A DNA stretch of 64,000 bases from assembly GCF_015712165.1 (NCBI RefSeq), contig NZ_JADPZX010000001.1, forward strand, positions 3,923,001 to 3,987,000, read 5' to 3'. This DNA comes from Streptomyces spinoverrucosus (GTDB taxonomy: Bacteria > Actinomycetota > Actinomycetes > Streptomycetales > Streptomycetaceae). Positions 774 to 24,201 of this stretch are shown piece by piece. The position numbers and the translations under genes are program-made. The stretch's first letter is position 1; the number at the start of each line of letters is the position of its first letter. The notes under the pieces were generated by a model. That model saw only the letters and a list, made by a program, of their open reading frames with translations, did no database searches and had not been told where the DNA came from.

Positions 774-1800
774 GGGTCACCTCCGAGGTGTCGCCGAGGA
801 CGATCCGGGCGAGGTTGGCCAGGGAGACCGAGCCCGGCGTGAAGTAGTCGCTGTGGCCGCCGTCGCCGGCCGCGAAGACGCGGGCGCCGAAGACCGGTGA
901 CACGGGGTCGGTGCCGAAGCCGACCGTGACGCCGAAGAGGTCGGCCCTGATGTGCGGTGCCTCCGCGATCCAGTCGTCGCCGCCGCGGGCCGCCCAGACA
1001 CGGGCGGACGTGTGCAGCGCCGCCGCCGAGTCCGCGCCCGTGCCGGGGCTGCCGATGAGCGCGATGTCGTCGATGCCGGTGCCGGCGGAGGCGGCGCGGG
1101 CGCAGACGACGGTGCCGTAGGAGTGGCAGACCAACGTGACGTGGGCCCGGCGGCCGGTGATGCCGCGCAGCTGTCGTATGAACTCGCGCAGCTTCGGGGC
1201 GGCTTGGTCGGCGCGGGTGGTGGTGAGGACGGTGGTGCTGATCGTGTCCGGGGTCTCGTAGCCGAGCCAGGCGACGACCGCCGGGCGGGTGCCCTGAGGG
1301 GCGTGCCGGGTCAGCCGGCCGTACAGGGCCGTGGCCGTCGCGCGGAAGCGGGCGTATGTGTCGAGGGTGGTGTCCGAGCCCGGGACGAGGACCGCTATGC
1401 GGTCGGCGTGGGCCAGGTCGCCGAACACCTCGGTGGCCCGGCCGGAGCCACGGCCGTCGAAGGCGAGAAGCGTACGGGACGGGTCGGCCAGGGAGCGGTC
1501 GGCGGCGGCGCGGCCGCGGTCGCCGTGCGCCTCGGCCATACGGGACGCTTCCGCGGCGTTGGCGCGGTTGGCGGCGTAGGCGTCGTCCAGGGTGGATGCC
1601 GTGAGCGGAGCGAGTACGGCGGGGGTGGGGGCCGGGATGCGGGGGTGGGCCGCGGCGGAGAGGGGGACTACGACGGCGGCGGTGACGAGGAGGGCGAGCA
1701 GGGAGCGGCGTAGTCGCCGGGCGGTGCGGAGGGGCGCCCTCCAGCCCCGCGGCCCCTCCGGCCCAGCCGTCGTCGTATCAACCCCGAACCCCAGGCCCAT
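766..1800 (-). CDS. Secreted or membrane-anchored alpha/beta hydrolase, DUF1023 type
   Basis: 344 residues from the ATG at 1800, chosen because GGGAGGGAAG stands about six bases upstream; an in-frame ATG at 1830 lacks such a site. A basic stretch followed by a hydrophobic segment (RRSLLALLVTAAVVVPL) looks like a signal peptide or anchor. The catalytic half contains TLVCHSYGTVV, a nucleophile-elbow variant with the serine after histidine, then GGDDWI as a candidate acid and GGHSDYF as the candidate histidine. This layout fits the actinobacterial DUF1023 alpha/beta hydrolases, whose substrates are mostly unknown. The gene is followed by, and overlaps, the membrane acyltransferase gene, so the pair may act on the same envelope compound; that is inference. 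Confidence 0.75.
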   Translation of the reverse strand: MGLGFGVDTTTAGPEGPRGWRAPLRTARRLRRSLLALLVTAAVVVPLSAAAHPRIPAPTPAVLAPLTASTLDDAYAANRANAAEASRMAEAHGDRGRAAADRSLADPSRTLLAFDGRGSGRATEVFGDLAHADRIAVLVPGSDTTLDTYARFRATATALYGRLTRHAPQGTRPAVVAWLGYETPDTISTTVLTTTRADQAAPKLREFIRQLRGITGRRAHVTLVCHSYGTVVCARAASAGTGIDDIALIGSPGTGADSAAALHTSARVWAARGGDDWIAEAPHIRADLFGVTVGFGTDPVSPVFGARVFAAGDGGHSDYFTPGSVSLANLARIVLGDTSEVTRA

Positions 1801-17021: not shown

Positions 17022-19619
<2,598 letters not shown>

Positions 19620-19918: not shown

Positions 19919-20254
19919 TCAGGCACTGCGGGGGGTGGCCGAGATGGTCATGGGGTCGGAGGTCTCCGGCTCCGCCAGCCGATGGTCGCGCTGGTCCAGG
20001 TTCACAAAGATCATTCCGTACCGGATGGCGCACCGCACGGGCTGCGGCGCCCCCCGAGGCCGCCGCAGACACCGGTACGCCCGCACGTCTCCGTCGTCGT
20101 CCCGGGTCACGACGACGGGCTCACCGAACACGGTCACCATCAACGAGTCACCGCTGTGGGGGATGGCGGTGGCCAGGTCGATGAAGTGCCAGCCGGAGCG
20201 GTAGGCAGTGGCCATTTCTCGACGGAAGGAGCGGTCGTCGGGTGGGGTGGTCAT
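19919..20254 (-). CDS. Truncated Rieske-like protein without iron-sulfur ligands
   Basis: 111 residues from ATG at 20254, which overlaps the stop of the upstream peptide gene (ATGA). YRSGWHFIDLATAIPHSGDS, then MVTVFGEPVVVTRDDDGDV and RAYRCLRRPRGA, read as the start of a Rieske oxygenase alpha subunit. The expected C-x-H...C-x-x-H cluster is not there: CLRRPRGAPQPVRC replaces it, with arginine and proline at the ligand positions. The sequence jumps straight to RYGMIFVNLDQ, which normally follows the cluster. The remaining strands could keep a beta-sandwich without iron. The frame is open and coupled to the peptide gene, so it is probably expressed. It may bind or process the peptide; that is speculation. 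Confidence 0.6.
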   Translation of the reverse strand: MTTPPDDRSFRREMATAYRSGWHFIDLATAIPHSGDSLMVTVFGEPVVVTRDDDGDVRAYRCLRRPRGAPQPVRCAIRYGMIFVNLDQRDHRLAEPETSDPMTISATPRSA

Positions 20255-20478
20255 GCCGACCCCTGCCCGCCGCTGCTCTCCTCGACGATGCTGCTCGGCC
20301 AGGAACTGTCCTTGGCGATCGTGACAGCCTGCCCCTTGCTGGGCCAGCTGCTGTCCGCTCGCGAGTCGCCCTTCGCCTCCGAGAGGCCACTCAGGACTCC
20401 GAAGGCCACAACGGTGGAGAAGGCGGCGACAAGAAACGAGCGAAGCATTCTGTTCCGCATAATCGGCTTCGTCCTCAC
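20251..20478 (-). CDS. Small secreted peptide with duplicated DSSWPS motif
   Basis: 75 residues from the GTG at 20478, which has AGGGGA seven bases upstream; ATG codons at 20460 and 20448 are alternatives. A basic start (MRTKPIMRNRMLR) and hydrophobic core (SFLVAAFSTVVAFGVLSGL, residues 14-32) make a Sec signal peptide or anchor. The remaining 40 or so residues contain DSSWPS at 42-47 and again at 57-62, fifteen residues apart, with KGQAVTIAK between them and a Ser/Gly-rich tail. The exact repetition of a Trp-Pro motif after a signal sequence suggests a secreted signal or a repeat-bearing precursor cut into short peptides. It is first in a coupled pair with the Rieske-like gene, and divergent from a LuxR-type regulator 113 bases away. 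No known family is recognised. Confidence 0.65.
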   Translation of the reverse strand: MRTKPIMRNRMLRSFLVAAFSTVVAFGVLSGLSEAKGDSRADSSWPSKGQAVTIAKDSSWPSSIVEESSGGQGSA

Positions 20479-20591
20479 TTGAAGGTCCCCTCTTCCCCCG
20501 TCGAGTAAGACGATGGCTCATTCGGGCACTTCATGGCCACACGATCGGTGCATCATGTTCCTGCATGTTCAGGACCCTGGGGGGTGGAGAT

Positions 20592-21602
20592 TTGGCAGCG
20601 AACCAGACTAAAGCGACACATCACCATGCGATGACTGAGATGTGTGCGGAAGGCGGCCGTCTCTATGCAAACGCGCTGCGCACAGGGCGTATCGCACGCA
20701 TCGACGTGGAGCCCGCACCCTGCCTGATGGAGTTCGCTCTGCTCTACCCAGATCCTGACGACGCGAACTGGCTGATCCCCATTCCCGCGTCCGTTGCCCT
20801 GGCACAGCGACTCAATCCCATCGAACGGGAGATCGCCGAGCGCAGGCGGTTGTCCGTCGAGCTTGCCGATACCCTCCAGCCGTTCATGGACCTCAGTACT
20901 CAGGTGACGGGGAGCACGCACTCCGTCACTGTGCTGGAGGGCGGTGAGCGGATCAACGCCGCCCTCAATCTGGCCACCGCCCAGTGCCAGGTCGAAATGC
21001 TCACGGTCCAGCCGAGCAACCGCATCTCGGAGGCCAGCCTTCTGCAGGGCCTGGAGCGGGACCGGCCGCTGATCGAACGCGGCGTGCGGATACGGACCCT
21101 CTACCAGCACACAGTGCGGTACAACCCTGGGAAGCTCGCCTATGTGGCCCGGCTCTCCGACGGAAAGGTGGAGTACCGCACCATCGACGAGTTGGTCGAG
21201 CGCCTCATTATCTGCGACGAGTCGGTCGCCTTCATCCCTACTCGCGACGACCAGCAGGTCGCCTTGGAGCTGCGCCACCCCGGACTCATCCGCTACCTGA
21301 TCAAGGTCTTCGAGTTCATGTGGAGCCGCGCGGTACCGCTGACCGAACACGCGCCCTACGAGACCGCCCCCAACGGCATCACCGACATCCAGCACTCCAT
21401 CGCCAAACTCCTCGTGGAGGGCCACGTCGACGAGGCAATCGCCCGCCGCCTCGGCATGAACGTACGCACCTGTCGAGCCCACATAGCCAAGCTGGCCTCG
21501 GCCCTGGGCAGCGGCAGCCGGGCCCAACTCGGCTACCTGATAGCCCAGTCGGGCATCCTGACTGGCGATCACCGACCGTCGGGAGGGGAGAGCCTGGCGT
21601 GA
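20592..21602 (+). CDS. LuxR-type regulator with sensor domain (paralogue 1)
   Basis: 336 residues from TTG at 20592, chosen because GGTGGAG precedes it and because the paralogue at 22439-23485 then aligns from its first residue; an ATG at 20565 has no ribosome site. The N-terminus has CLMEFALLYPDPDDANWLIP, shared with the paralogue. The middle (about residues 110-250) resembles the TrmB/phospholipase-D-like sensor fold of actinobacterial orphan LuxR regulators (TVLEGGERINAALN, VEMLTVQP, FIPTRDDQQVALELRHP). The C-terminus is a LuxR helix-turn-helix: IAKLLVEGHVDEAIARRLG then NVRTCRAHIAKL. It probably controls the divergent peptide operon. TCCTGCATGTTCAGGA at 20559-20574, just before the start, is a possible operator. 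Confidence 0.75.
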   Translation: MAANQTKATHHHAMTEMCAEGGRLYANALRTGRIARIDVEPAPCLMEFALLYPDPDDANWLIPIPASVALAQRLNPIEREIAERRRLSVELADTLQPFMDLSTQVTGSTHSVTVLEGGERINAALNLATAQCQVEMLTVQPSNRISEASLLQGLERDRPLIERGVRIRTLYQHTVRYNPGKLAYVARLSDGKVEYRTIDELVERLIICDESVAFIPTRDDQQVALELRHPGLIRYLIKVFEFMWSRAVPLTEHAPYETAPNGITDIQHSIAKLLVEGHVDEAIARRLGMNVRTCRAHIAKLASALGSGSRAQLGYLIAQSGILTGDHRPSGGESLA

Positions 21603-21633: not shown

Positions 21634-22476
21634 GTGTGTGCGACAGACCTGGCACTAGACGCCCGCGCCTTGGGCGAGGGTTCCGCGTCAGAGGAGGACG
21701 CCACTATGGTGACCTGCCTGCTGCACCCCGGACTGCTCCGCCCGGACATGGACGACATGCGCCGGCTGCGACCACTCAACCCTGCAGCGGCTCTCTCGCT
21801 GCTGCTGCGAAATGCCGCCGAGGACATCGCCAAGCGCCGCCAGGCCGAGACACGTCTGGCCGAAGCGTTCGGGCCGCTCCTGGTCTTCGGCTCAGAGCGC
21901 CTCTCACCAGCGGAACCATCGGAGCTCATTCTTCTGAAAGGCTTGGGCTCCATCAAACACGCCATCGCCGAGGCCATGACCTCCGCCTCTAGCGAACTCC
22001 TCGCTATGCAGCCCTACAACGGCCAGCCGCCGGCCGCCGCCCGTCTGGCAAAGGCTTTGGACCGTGACCAGGCCTTATTCGACCGAGGCGACCCTATAGG
22101 CACCACCTATCAGCACACACAGCGCCACATCCCCGCTGTAGTCGCTCACTACGAGCAGCTGAACGGCGACGCCGAGGCACGCACGCTCAACCAGGTCACC
22201 GACCGCCTCCTCGTCGTCGACCGCACCGTCGCCTTCATCCACGCCAACAAGGACCGCACACTCGCCCTCGAAACCTGCCACTCGACCCAGATCGGCTACT
22301 TCACCATCACCTTCGACCGCCTTGGTTCATGGCAACGTTCATGTATTTGGAGGCAGTCGTCCAGCGCCCACCCATCAGGGCATCACCCCCTGCCGGCGAG
22401 CCATCGCGAGCCTGCTGGCCGAGCACAACTCGGCTACCTCATAGGGCAGTCGGGGATCCTTGATCAGGAAGGCTGA
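21634..22476 (+). pseudogene. LuxR-type regulator paralogue 2, helix-turn-helix deleted
   Basis: An open frame of 280 codons begins near a GTG at 21634 and aligns with paralogue 1 through the sensor domain (LLHPGLLRPDMDDMRRL, AMQPYNGQPPAAARL, FIHANKDRTLALETCHS). After about 22325 the frame is lost: FMATFMYLEAVVQRP is in another frame and TPCRRAIASLLAEH in a third. The original frame returns only at RAQLGYLIGQSGIL, the very end of the family. The roughly 35 residues of the DNA-binding domain between LLAE and AQLGYL are gone, as after a deletion. The product could persist as a sensor-only protein but cannot bind DNA like its relatives. Its 3' end overlaps the convergent paralogue 3 by 38 bases. 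Confidence 0.7.
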
Positions 22477-23485
22477 GCGGCGCTGAGGACCTGCCTTCCG
22501 CGGGCCGAGGGGGCCCATCCAGGCCCACCTGGGCGATGCGGACACCGAGTTGGGTGCGACTGGCAGCTCCCAGCGTCTCCGAGAGCCGGGCGATGTGTGC
22601 CCGACAGGTACGGACGCTTATGCCAAGACGCTCCGCGATCACCGCATCCTGGTGGCCCTCAGCCAGCAGTGCAGCGATGGACTGCTCACGGTGGGAGATA
22701 CCCTCGATGCCGGTGTCGGGGAGGGGGGCCGCGAGGGGGATCGCCAGGCGCCACAGACGCTCGAAGACCGTGACGAAGTAGTGGACCAGAGCCGGGTGGC
22801 GGAGTTCCAGTGCGAGGGTGCGGTCTGCGTTCGCAGGGATGAATGCGACGGTGCGGTCGAAGAGGATGAGTCGGTCGGTCACCTCGTCCAGAGTGCGGGT
22901 CTCGACCGAATCACCCATTAGATCAAGGTAGTTGAGCAGGCCTTGGCCATGCCGGGCCACATGCGTGTACAGGTCCCGCATTCGCACACCCCGGCTGCGT
23001 AGCGCCAGGGCCCGGTGCAGGCCTTCCGTCAGTTCGTGCTCGCGGCGGATGCCGCCCGGCTGCACGGTCAGCACCTCGGTCGTGCACGCCTCGGTCGCCT
23101 CGTCCAGGGCCGCTTGGATGCGGGAGGAGCCGTCGAGAACCCGGATCGCCGTGCCCTCCCCCGCGGACGACGGCGGCTGCGGGCGAAGGCCGGCGTACCA
23201 CTCGAAGGCCGTCACCGCCGAGCCCATCCGCCGTTGACTCGCACTTACTTCGTCGTACACCCCACGTAGCAGCCGCGTCATGACCTCCTGCGGGGACGTC
23301 GGCACCAGCCAGTCCATGTCATCCGGGTCCGGGTGCAGCAGCGCCAACTCCAGTAGGCAGGGCACTGCATCAGCATCCCGGCGTGACACTCGGCCCCGGC
23401 GTACGGCCCGGGAATACACGCGATCCCCGGCCTCGCACAGTCGGTCGGCACCGTGTGGATGCTCGCCCCTTCCGCGCTCGGCCAT
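22439..23485 (-). CDS. LuxR-type regulator with sensor domain (paralogue 3)
   Basis: 348 residues from ATG at 23485 with GGGGGAGGAAG directly upstream. Same architecture as paralogue 1: PCLLELALLHPDPDDMDWLV near the start, IRVLDGSSRIQAALDEATEA and TEVLTVQPGGIRREHEL in the sensor domain, FIPANADRTLALELRHPALV, then the helix-turn-helix SIAALLAEGHQDAVIAERLG and SVRTCRAHIARLSETLG. Tail rich in Pro and Ser (about 25 residues) is not shared. Likely a one-component regulator that senses a ligand in the middle domain. Its targets may be the peptide operon or the bacteriocin-like gene, which lies 275 bases beyond its own start on the opposite strand. Confidence 0.8.
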   Translation of the reverse strand: MAERGRGEHPHGADRLCEAGDRVYSRAVRRGRVSRRDADAVPCLLELALLHPDPDDMDWLVPTSPQEVMTRLLRGVYDEVSASQRRMGSAVTAFEWYAGLRPQPPSSAGEGTAIRVLDGSSRIQAALDEATEACTTEVLTVQPGGIRREHELTEGLHRALALRSRGVRMRDLYTHVARHGQGLLNYLDLMGDSVETRTLDEVTDRLILFDRTVAFIPANADRTLALELRHPALVHYFVTVFERLWRLAIPLAAPLPDTGIEGISHREQSIAALLAEGHQDAVIAERLGISVRTCRAHIARLSETLGAASRTQLGVRIAQVGLDGPPRPAEGRSSAPLSLPDQGSPTAL

Positions 23486-23760
23486 CTTCCTCCCCCGGCT
23501 ACCGTTCCTTGCCGCACACGACCGACACGCCTGCGCAGCACGCTCACAGCATTACGAGCAACAGCCCAACTTCCGCAGCGCAACTATGCGCAGAGGGGCT
23601 TGCCACCGCAACCCGGCCCTGGCTCCACCTTCGCCCAGATGCCAGGTTATGCACCTTTTAACCCCTCCGCTTCAGGCATGTTCAGCATCATGAGGCTACC
23701 TGCACATGCTCATGCCATGCATGGTTGATCAAGCGGCAACGAACGCAATTTTTCGCGAGT
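23486..23760. other. Divergent promoter region of comparatively low G+C
   Basis: No gene is seen between the divergent regulator and the bacteriocin-like gene. The sequence is clearly richer in A and T than its surroundings (for example GCAATTTTTCGCGAGTATG near 23748), which fits promoter DNA and recent transfer. Confidence 0.5.
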
Positions 23761-24201
23761 ATGCCGCACACTTCTGCAGCAACGACACCAAGAGGAGAAT
23801 TCAACACCGCGAAGGTCCCCGGTAAATCTCTCACTATGGCCGCCGCTGCTGCGGCCTTGACCACTGGAGTACTCGCTCCTGCCACGTCGGCCAGCGCGGC
23901 AACACCCCAGCCCAAGGACTGGGGGATGGTTGCCATCAAGGTTGATCCGTCCTCGCGGTCGGTGACCCCTATGACCACTAAGAATGTCGGCGGTGGTACA
24001 TGGACCTACGGCACTGAAATAACGGCCGATGGAAAGCGCTGCTACTCGTACTACTTCCACGGCTCGAAGCTTCACAGAGCGTCCGTGACAATAGCCGGTG
24101 GCACAAGCAGGGCGGCGGAGTCACCTGGGCATACGGCTAGGGCCACCCGAACGGCAGGCGCCGCCTACACGTGCTACGCGTACTGGGCAAATCTCGAATA
24201 A
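23761..24201 (+). CDS. Lactococcin 972-family bacteriocin precursor
   Basis: 146 residues if started at ATG 23761; the start is uncertain. A strong AAGAGGAG at 23791 is followed by no ATG, GTG or TTG in this frame until ATG at 23836, which would leave a signal peptide without its basic head. The signal peptide core is MAAAAAALTTGVLAPATSASA (cleavage near residue 46). The mature part has VGGGTWTYGTE, YSYYFHGSKLHRASVTIAG and a C-terminal AAYTCYAYWA. These are the blocks of lactococcin 972 (GTWxxG, SNYHHGSKTHSATV, aromatic end), in spacing and order. Two cysteines (94 and 138) could form a disulfide. Lactococcin 972 blocks septum formation by binding lipid II; whether this protein does so is inference. 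Confidence 0.72.
   Translation: MPHTSAATTPRGEFNTAKVPGKSLTMAAAAAALTTGVLAPATSASAATPQPKDWGMVAIKVDPSSRSVTPMTTKNVGGGTWTYGTEITADGKRCYSYYFHGSKLHRASVTIAGGTSRAAESPGHTARATRTAGAAYTCYAYWANLE

Follow-up and report, generated by a model that had tools for sequence, protein, structure and literature searches.

A repeat-bearing precursor gene and a divergent TrmB/LuxR-type regulator as a probable peptide pheromone system of Streptomyces

We analyzed a window of 64,000 nucleotides from the 8.85-Mb genome of Streptomyces spinoverrucosus. It contains a small gene for a putative secreted precursor with two copies of a short word, and this gene is divergent from a LuxR-type regulator gene (reg1). We read the pair as part of a genus-wide, species-specific pheromone system in which a peptide is sensed by an intracellular receptor and give this reading a probability of about 0.8; the secretion, processing, import and binding of the peptide are inferred. 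From one species to another the word varies together with the reg1 binding domain, and the two are therefore very probably message and receptor.

The precursor gene and its surroundings

The features on the precursor side of the locus are as follows.

20251..20478, minus strand: gene of the proposed pheromone precursor (75 aa), starting at GTG
Precursor residues about 1-35 or 1-41: candidate Sec-type leader, followed by the two word copies
20341..20355, minus strand: word copy 1, DSSWP, residues 42-46
20296..20310, minus strand: word copy 2, DSSWP, residues 57-61, with synonymous codons that differ from those of copy 1
19919..20254, minus strand: Rieske-like gene, 111 aa, its start overlapping the precursor stop (ATGA)
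20479..20591, no strand: divergent intergenic region, 113 bp, strongly conserved in the loci aligned
20560..20573, no strand: conserved palindrome CCTGAACATGCAGG, a candidate regulator site

The ORF at 20251-20478(-) translates to MRTKPIMRNRMLRSFLVAAFSTVVAFGVLSGLSEAKGDSRADSSWPSKGQAVTIAKDSSWPSSIVEESSGGQGSA. It is the 75-residue product that an initial annotation of this DNA had described, and DSSWPS occupies residues 42-47 and again 57-62. The Sec signal proposed there is also plausible. The N terminus is basic, a hydrophobic stretch follows, and there are two putative signal peptidase sites, SEA/K and SRA/D. The word is encoded by GAC AGC AGC TGG in copy 1 and GAC AGT TCC TGG in copy 2. The annotated DSSWPS repeat is real, but its unit is a tetra- or pentapeptide, [DNE]xxW(x), and not a hexapeptide; outside it the identity between copies is at most 0.28.

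The precursor stop overlaps the ATG of the downstream Rieske-like gene, so the coupling of the two genes stands. The description of that gene as truncated does not. A gene of about 111 aa is stably kept in 80/80 syntenic loci, and it is not a decaying remnant. Its protein is at least 84% identical in the 80 loci. The gene is present in 158/199 Streptomyces genomes, and a search at E 1e-20 gave no match in the other 41. Of the cluster ligands, the cysteines are kept in 80/80 and 79/80 aligned proteins, and both histidines are arginine in 80/80 (80 of 81 were aligned, one being left out for length). The CxH...CxxH pattern of a Rieske [2Fe-2S] protein is absent, and the Pfam score is 17.0 bits against a cut-off of 20.3. 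The initial annotation had also considered a modified-peptide precursor, and this Rieske-like neighbor is all that we found in its favor. Beyond it lies a gene at 17022-19619, which we take to be ClpB-like.

The divergent gap of 113 bases was confirmed. It spans 20479-20591 when the LuxR-type gene is taken to start, as is likely, with the TTG at 20592. Measured from the ATG at 20565, which gives a longer reg1 ORF, the gap is 86 bases. The intergenic alignment covers 78/81 loci; three loci missed the start pattern. A second GAACATG sits 10 bp past the palindrome CCTGAACATGCAGG. The extended 23-bp site occurs once in the genome at up to 3 mismatches, which would fit local autoregulation. At up to 3 mismatches the 14-bp palindrome has 14 matches in the window, compared with a mean of 4.6 in shuffled sequences, and one match is exact. 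A scan of 20440-20640 for sigma-70-type promoter and terminator patterns found neither.

Conservation and grammar of the word

A protein search with the precursor returned 42 homologs, the named ones being hypothetical, uncharacterized or secreted Streptomyces proteins. A profile search gave at least 254 matches at E values up to 0.01. Among the best 120 of these 254, most entries with a name are Streptomyces proteins described as hypothetical or secreted; three are named 5'-nucleotidase. The 42 homologs and the conserved divergent pairing place the peptide ORF far beyond chance.

The genome scan confirmed 163 stretches, of which 80 were retained as syntenic loci (81 counting the window). The named loci are from Streptomyces, except one from Kitasatospora and one from an "Actinobacteria bacterium." A motif-bearing peptide is divergent from a reg1 ortholog (at least 73% identity) in the window and in 80/80 syntenic loci. 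The convergent regulator reg3 is present in 78/80, and in the other two (L029 and L046) the contig stops short of that position. The Rieske-like gene is present in 80/80 and ClpB in 75/80, the remaining five loci being short.

A second draw comprised 199 Streptomyces genomes. At least 124 of them, the S. spinoverrucosus genome included, have reg1 at E values up to 1e-140. All 123 others carry a word-bearing divergent peptide, 119 found by script and four (L189, L198, L216 and L217) by eye. Their DNA came from 29 loci and 94 further loci, and some species may recur from the first set. In 34 more genomes of the draw the Rieske-like gene is present and reg1 has no match at E 1e-140. Twenty of these were taken, and each of the 20 carries a reg1-like gene, with identities of 50-64% (for L271 residues 1-177 alone aligned). 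A peptide with DxxW or ExxW was seen by eye in 19 of the 20 loci, the exception being L264. Two unlike words occur in L259, mixed words in L274 and a single copy in L276. New words at these loci include EPSW, EPTW, DPGW, DLVW and DIVW. The initial annotation had made its proposal depend on conservation of the motif and of the gene pair in relatives. Both are kept across Streptomyces (80/80 loci; 123/123 genomes).

A family draw of 150 genomes gave a reg1 match at E 1e-60 in 34, of which 30 are Streptomyces. The four others, from three genera, are 39-48% identical to reg1, and each has a divergent, putatively secreted ORF with DxxW. The words are DSAWG (L250), DPAWG (L251), DSGWGP (L252) and DHVWD (L253). 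A paralogous regulator of the S. spinoverrucosus genome (28-30% identity) was found in 3/101 genomes. This TrmB/LuxR-like regulator is divergent from an ORF with predicted secretion that ends in DSLIWG (L247, 1030-1296(-)), and its relative in L248 from one that ends in DSFIWG (1077-1325(-)). These pairings and the four outside Streptomyces are few observations. Scans around the distant paralogs L013-L016, L249 and L254-L256 found no comparable peptide.

All of the first 122 precursors contain [DN][ST]xW. Among the 110 distinct precursors of the first set, 297/299 tryptophans of the mature tail lie inside the word. The combined set holds 219 distinct precursors with [DNE][STIVL]xW. They have 35 different first tetrapeptides and 1-18 copies each, and 598/600 tail tryptophans lie in the word. 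A single copy is present in 41/219, and in 76/219 the tail ends exactly 1 residue past the last tryptophan. Examples of the word are DSSWP, DTSWP, NSSWP, DSHWP, DSVWS, DSSWG, DSGW, DIGW and EISW. The longest array among the 219 precursors is in L093 near 6001(+), with 18 copies of DSTW.

Copies are nearly uniform within a precursor and differ between precursors. For positions 1 to 5, agreement within the 100 multicopy precursors of the first set is 1.00, 1.00, 0.94, 1.00 and 0.81. Between precursors it is 0.76, 0.69, 0.34, 1.00 and 0.25, with flanks at 0.28 or less. One tetrapeptide is used in all copies of 92/100 multicopy precursors in the first set and 85/87 in the second; words are mixed in 8/100 and 2/87. 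Copy pairs with identical residues use the same synonymous codon in 142/214 cases, where 144.1 are expected. Codons match no better than chance, so selection on the peptide and not on the DNA keeps the copies uniform. We rejected an origin of the repeats at the DNA level, through recent duplication or gene conversion, because the codons match like independent draws and the flanks differ.

The regulator and its co-variation with the word

The features on the regulator side are as follows.

20565..21602, plus strand: reg1, proposed receptor; translation may start at TTG 20592
20907..21350, plus strand: ligand (effector) domain of reg1, residues 115-262; its sequence tracks the word
20997..20999, plus strand: Met145 codon of reg1; Met with Ser at word position 2 and otherwise not, in the Streptomyces reg1 proteins examined
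21634..22476, plus strand: reg2-type paralog; no Pfam-recognizable helix-turn-helix, that region looking disrupted; probably degraded
22439..23485, minus strand: reg3, convergent paralog; good LuxR helix-turn-helix; sequence not tracking the peptide

In the predicted structure reg1 is a TrmB-like protein with an added LuxR helix-turn-helix. The modeled order is a TrmB-like winged helix, a long helix, an effector domain of the PLD/TrmB fold and a C-terminal LuxR helix-turn-helix. The first three are the elements of a TrmB-type protein, and the last matches GerE, as in LuxR/GerE proteins. Residues 20-261 of the model align with TrmBL2 and TrmB. The full-length rmsd is 12 or more, so the predicted domain placement differs from that of TrmBL2 and TrmB. 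The modeled effector domain by itself fits 2f5t with an rmsd of 2.5 over 129 aa. Pfam lists no autoinducer-binding domain for reg1, and the region matches the PLD/TrmB fold instead. A TPR ligand-binding domain is absent. The phospholipase D motif HxKxxxxD is not found in 73 reg1 proteins. With columns anchored by eye at Asp218, all 73 have Val or Ala in place of the His and Arg in place of the Lys, and all 73 keep the Asp.

The regulator array that separates reg1 from reg3 is in flux, with 0-4 reg2-type copies. Among 81 loci there are 0 copies in 24, 1 in 43, 2 in 12, 3 in 1 and 4 in 1, these counts being lower bounds where contigs end. As cognate receptors reg2 and reg3 were rejected: the site homologous to residue 145 is Val in 73/73 reg3 proteins and is mixed in reg2. 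A Lactococcin-972-type bacteriocin gene lies beside reg3 at 23725-24201(+) (Pfam E 1.5e-14). It has no tblastn match in the DNA analyzed from the 80 syntenic loci and may have been inserted in this genome or its close relatives.

Co-variation was scored at 73 of the 81 loci. Eight were excluded because an ORF was too short or too long or because ClpB was missing. Trees were quick IQ-TREE or FastTree trees without mixture models. The number of changes required by the word tetrapeptide is 40 for the ClpB tree, 40 for the Rieske-like tree, 41 for that of reg3 and 24 for that of reg1. Trees of separate reg1 segments require 32 (residues 1-90), 25 (91-265) and 35 (266-346). With random sets of 75 columns the means are 29.7, 25.7 and 36.7, so at equal column numbers the lead of the ligand domain is modest over residues 1-90 and clear over the helix-turn-helix part. 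The peptide gene is overlapped or directly adjoined by the Rieske-like gene, whose tree nevertheless fits worse, and linkage alone is thus insufficient. That the word just follows the species was also rejected. The ClpB, Rieske-like and reg3 trees need more changes, and column scans agree.

In single-column tests against word position 2, reg1 residue 145 reaches an association of 0.93 and the next column 0.23. The best column in reg3, ClpB or the Rieske-like protein reaches at most 0.26. In the first set of 73 loci, Ser at position 2 goes with Met145 in 49/49 and Thr with Val or Leu in 24/24. The rule recurs in 110 receptors outside that set, where Ser goes with Met in 53/53 and Thr, Val, Ile or Leu never does (57/57). 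Of 109 distinct new receptors, 95 are less than 90% identical to the first set (Ser-Met 42/42; other residues with Met 0/53) and 49 less than 80% identical (13/13; 0/36). A further 19 receptors give Ser-Met 9/9 and non-Ser without Met 10/10. The Streptomyces total is 110/110 for Ser with Met145 and 82/82 for other residues without Met. Outside Streptomyces the rule fails, with Ser alongside Leu145 in L250 and L252.

On the tree of 192 distinct receptors, position 2 and residue 145 each change 25 times. On well-supported branches, 11/11 independent pairs of position 2 and residue 145 agree (p 0.00098). The smaller peptide residue goes with the larger receptor residue, which is the expectation from direct contact. 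Position 5 and residue 127 pair in the first set as Pro with Gly, Ser or Asn (43/43), Ser with Leu (18/18) and Gly with Phe (10/10), but this link rests on 2 changes and blurs in the second set. Position 1 is tied to residue 161 by a single change. With so few changes, these two links are not independent of phylogeny. Judged by the sequences compared, it is nearly certain that the word and reg1 have co-evolved as ligand and receptor. The earlier proposal of a regulator plus secreted-peptide module thus gains support from the conservation of the pair and from residue-level co-variation with the ligand domain.

Proposed signaling and known systems

The proposed mechanism would run as follows. 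The precursor would be exported by the Sec route. Proteolysis would release short peptides built on the word, here DSSWP. These may re-enter cells, probably through a general oligopeptide permease, and would bind the PLD/TrmB-fold domain of reg1. Bound reg1 would then alter transcription through its winged helix, its LuxR-type DNA-binding domain or both. Its targets probably include its own divergent promoter and, through the presumed ortholog in Streptomyces coelicolor, the control of antibiotic production.

That ortholog was placed by gene order and length. At L220 the ORFs for reg1, reg2 and reg3 encode 337, 327 and 394 aa, and reg1 of the same genome (L117) is identical to the Streptomyces rubrogriseus protein P0106. 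Published papers give LuxR-family SCO3665 and SCO3666 as 327 and 394 aa (PMC3282765) and clpB as SCO3661 (PMC2687793). With matching gene order and ORF lengths, SCO3664-SCO3666 would be this locus in S. coelicolor, and SCO3664 is very probably the reg1 ortholog, as judged by order and lengths rather than by S. coelicolor sequence. Insertions in SCO3664 are among those reported to raise actinorhodin more than 50-fold (PMC6585502). This rise on disruption suggests that reg1 holds production down. The portions available of these papers (PMC6585502, PMC3282765 and PMC2687793) treat SCO3664-SCO3666 as regulator or LuxR-family genes only and mention no peptide or ligand there. A literature search that left subscription journals largely uncovered found no account either of the peptides or of a peptide-receptor role for SCO3664, and earlier publication is possible. 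S. coelicolor reportedly also has a signal of about 655 Da imported by BldK. A link to it was not supported: among the unmodified 560-720 Da fragments surrounding the tryptophans of the L117 precursor, whose word is DSHWP, none has that mass.

Three other explanations were weighed against a pheromone. The precursor or pieces of it could bind reg1 inside the producing cell before being exported, acting as an antagonist or reporting on secretion, and no message would then pass between cells. The co-variation of word and receptor would be explained equally well, and a DNA-binding receptor of the TrmB/LuxR type would be cytoplasmic. The predicted Sec-type leader of the precursors examined speaks against it, and so does the frequent change of the word (63 changes of the tetrapeptide across the 192-sequence reg1 tree), which is expected of an intercellular message, whereas a ligand used internally would have little cause to change so frequently. 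We regard internal sensing as unlikely. Less probable still is a RiPP or bacteriocin-like product with modified Trp words, perhaps made with help from the Rieske-like protein, whose mature form the regulator would sense. Repeated cores after a leader and the conserved Rieske-like gene directly downstream would suit such a product. However, among the ten window genes tested the other conserved neighbors are regulators, ClpB and a sugar-binding protein, and both cluster histidines of the Rieske-like protein have become arginine. The leader also resembles a Sec signal, and for an antimicrobial one would not expect species differences that parallel those of a one-component regulator.

The repeats and the co-variation might instead stem from common descent, or from joint transfer of a segment with the peptide gene and reg1, with no contact between ligand and receptor. 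In favor of this, the two genes adjoin each other, and the reg1 tree accommodates the word better than that of ClpB. Yet the reg1 residues nearest the peptide gene (1-90) need 32 changes and the Rieske-like gene 40, against 25 for the ligand domain. One column also stands at 0.93 over a next best of 0.23, and its 25 co-changes are repeated and complementary in size. We give this explanation almost no weight.

The pheromone reading can be widened, and we lean toward the wider form with less confidence than toward the system itself. Streptomyces would have a pheromone class with a D/N/E-x-x-W grammar, residue-coded pherotypes and TrmB-fold/LuxR receptors, which would help to time antibiotic production and would reach beyond the genus. 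The pherotype code would then consist of residue 145 for position 2, and perhaps of residue 127 for position 5 and residues 118 and 161 for position 1. The best-known hormones of Streptomyces are gamma-butyrolactones, and many useful antibiotics are made by streptomycetes. If the reading is right, the peptides would be a cheap, synthesizable handle on antibiotic production, at a regulator locus that, given the presumed orthology, shifts actinorhodin more than 50-fold. They would also provide dozens of natural ligand-receptor pairs for studying how signaling specificity evolves. The use of oligopeptide pheromones by streptomycetes becomes directly testable with five-residue synthetic peptides.

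The RRNPP systems (Rap-Phr, PlcR-PapR, NprR-NprX and Rgg-SHP) belong to Firmicutes and their mobile elements (see also PMC10075063). As in those systems, a propeptide gene adjoins the gene of an intracellular receptor and the message would be a short linear peptide, with secretion here suggested by the leader. Several RRNPP receptors bind DNA, as is proposed for reg1. RRNPP receptors have TPR repeats, whereas reg1 has a ligand domain of the predicted PLD/TrmB fold and a LuxR helix-turn-helix. The precursors here also differ in carrying 1-18 near-uniform words each and in their Streptomyces host. The PDB entries 3qph, 2f5t and 5box, by their titles, describe TrmB as binding sugar and TrmBL2 as a chromatin protein. 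Unlike these, reg1 has an added LuxR-type helix-turn-helix and a ligand that is probably a peptide. It differs from LuxR quorum receptors, both the AHL type and VqmA, in that Pfam finds no autoinducer-binding domain in it and the proposed signal is a gene-encoded peptide and not a small molecule. Yeast alpha-factor is made from a secreted precursor in which the message occurs several times. The precursors described here share this multicopy design, but they are bacterial, have a core of 4-5 residues and would act on an intracellular receptor that is encoded divergently.
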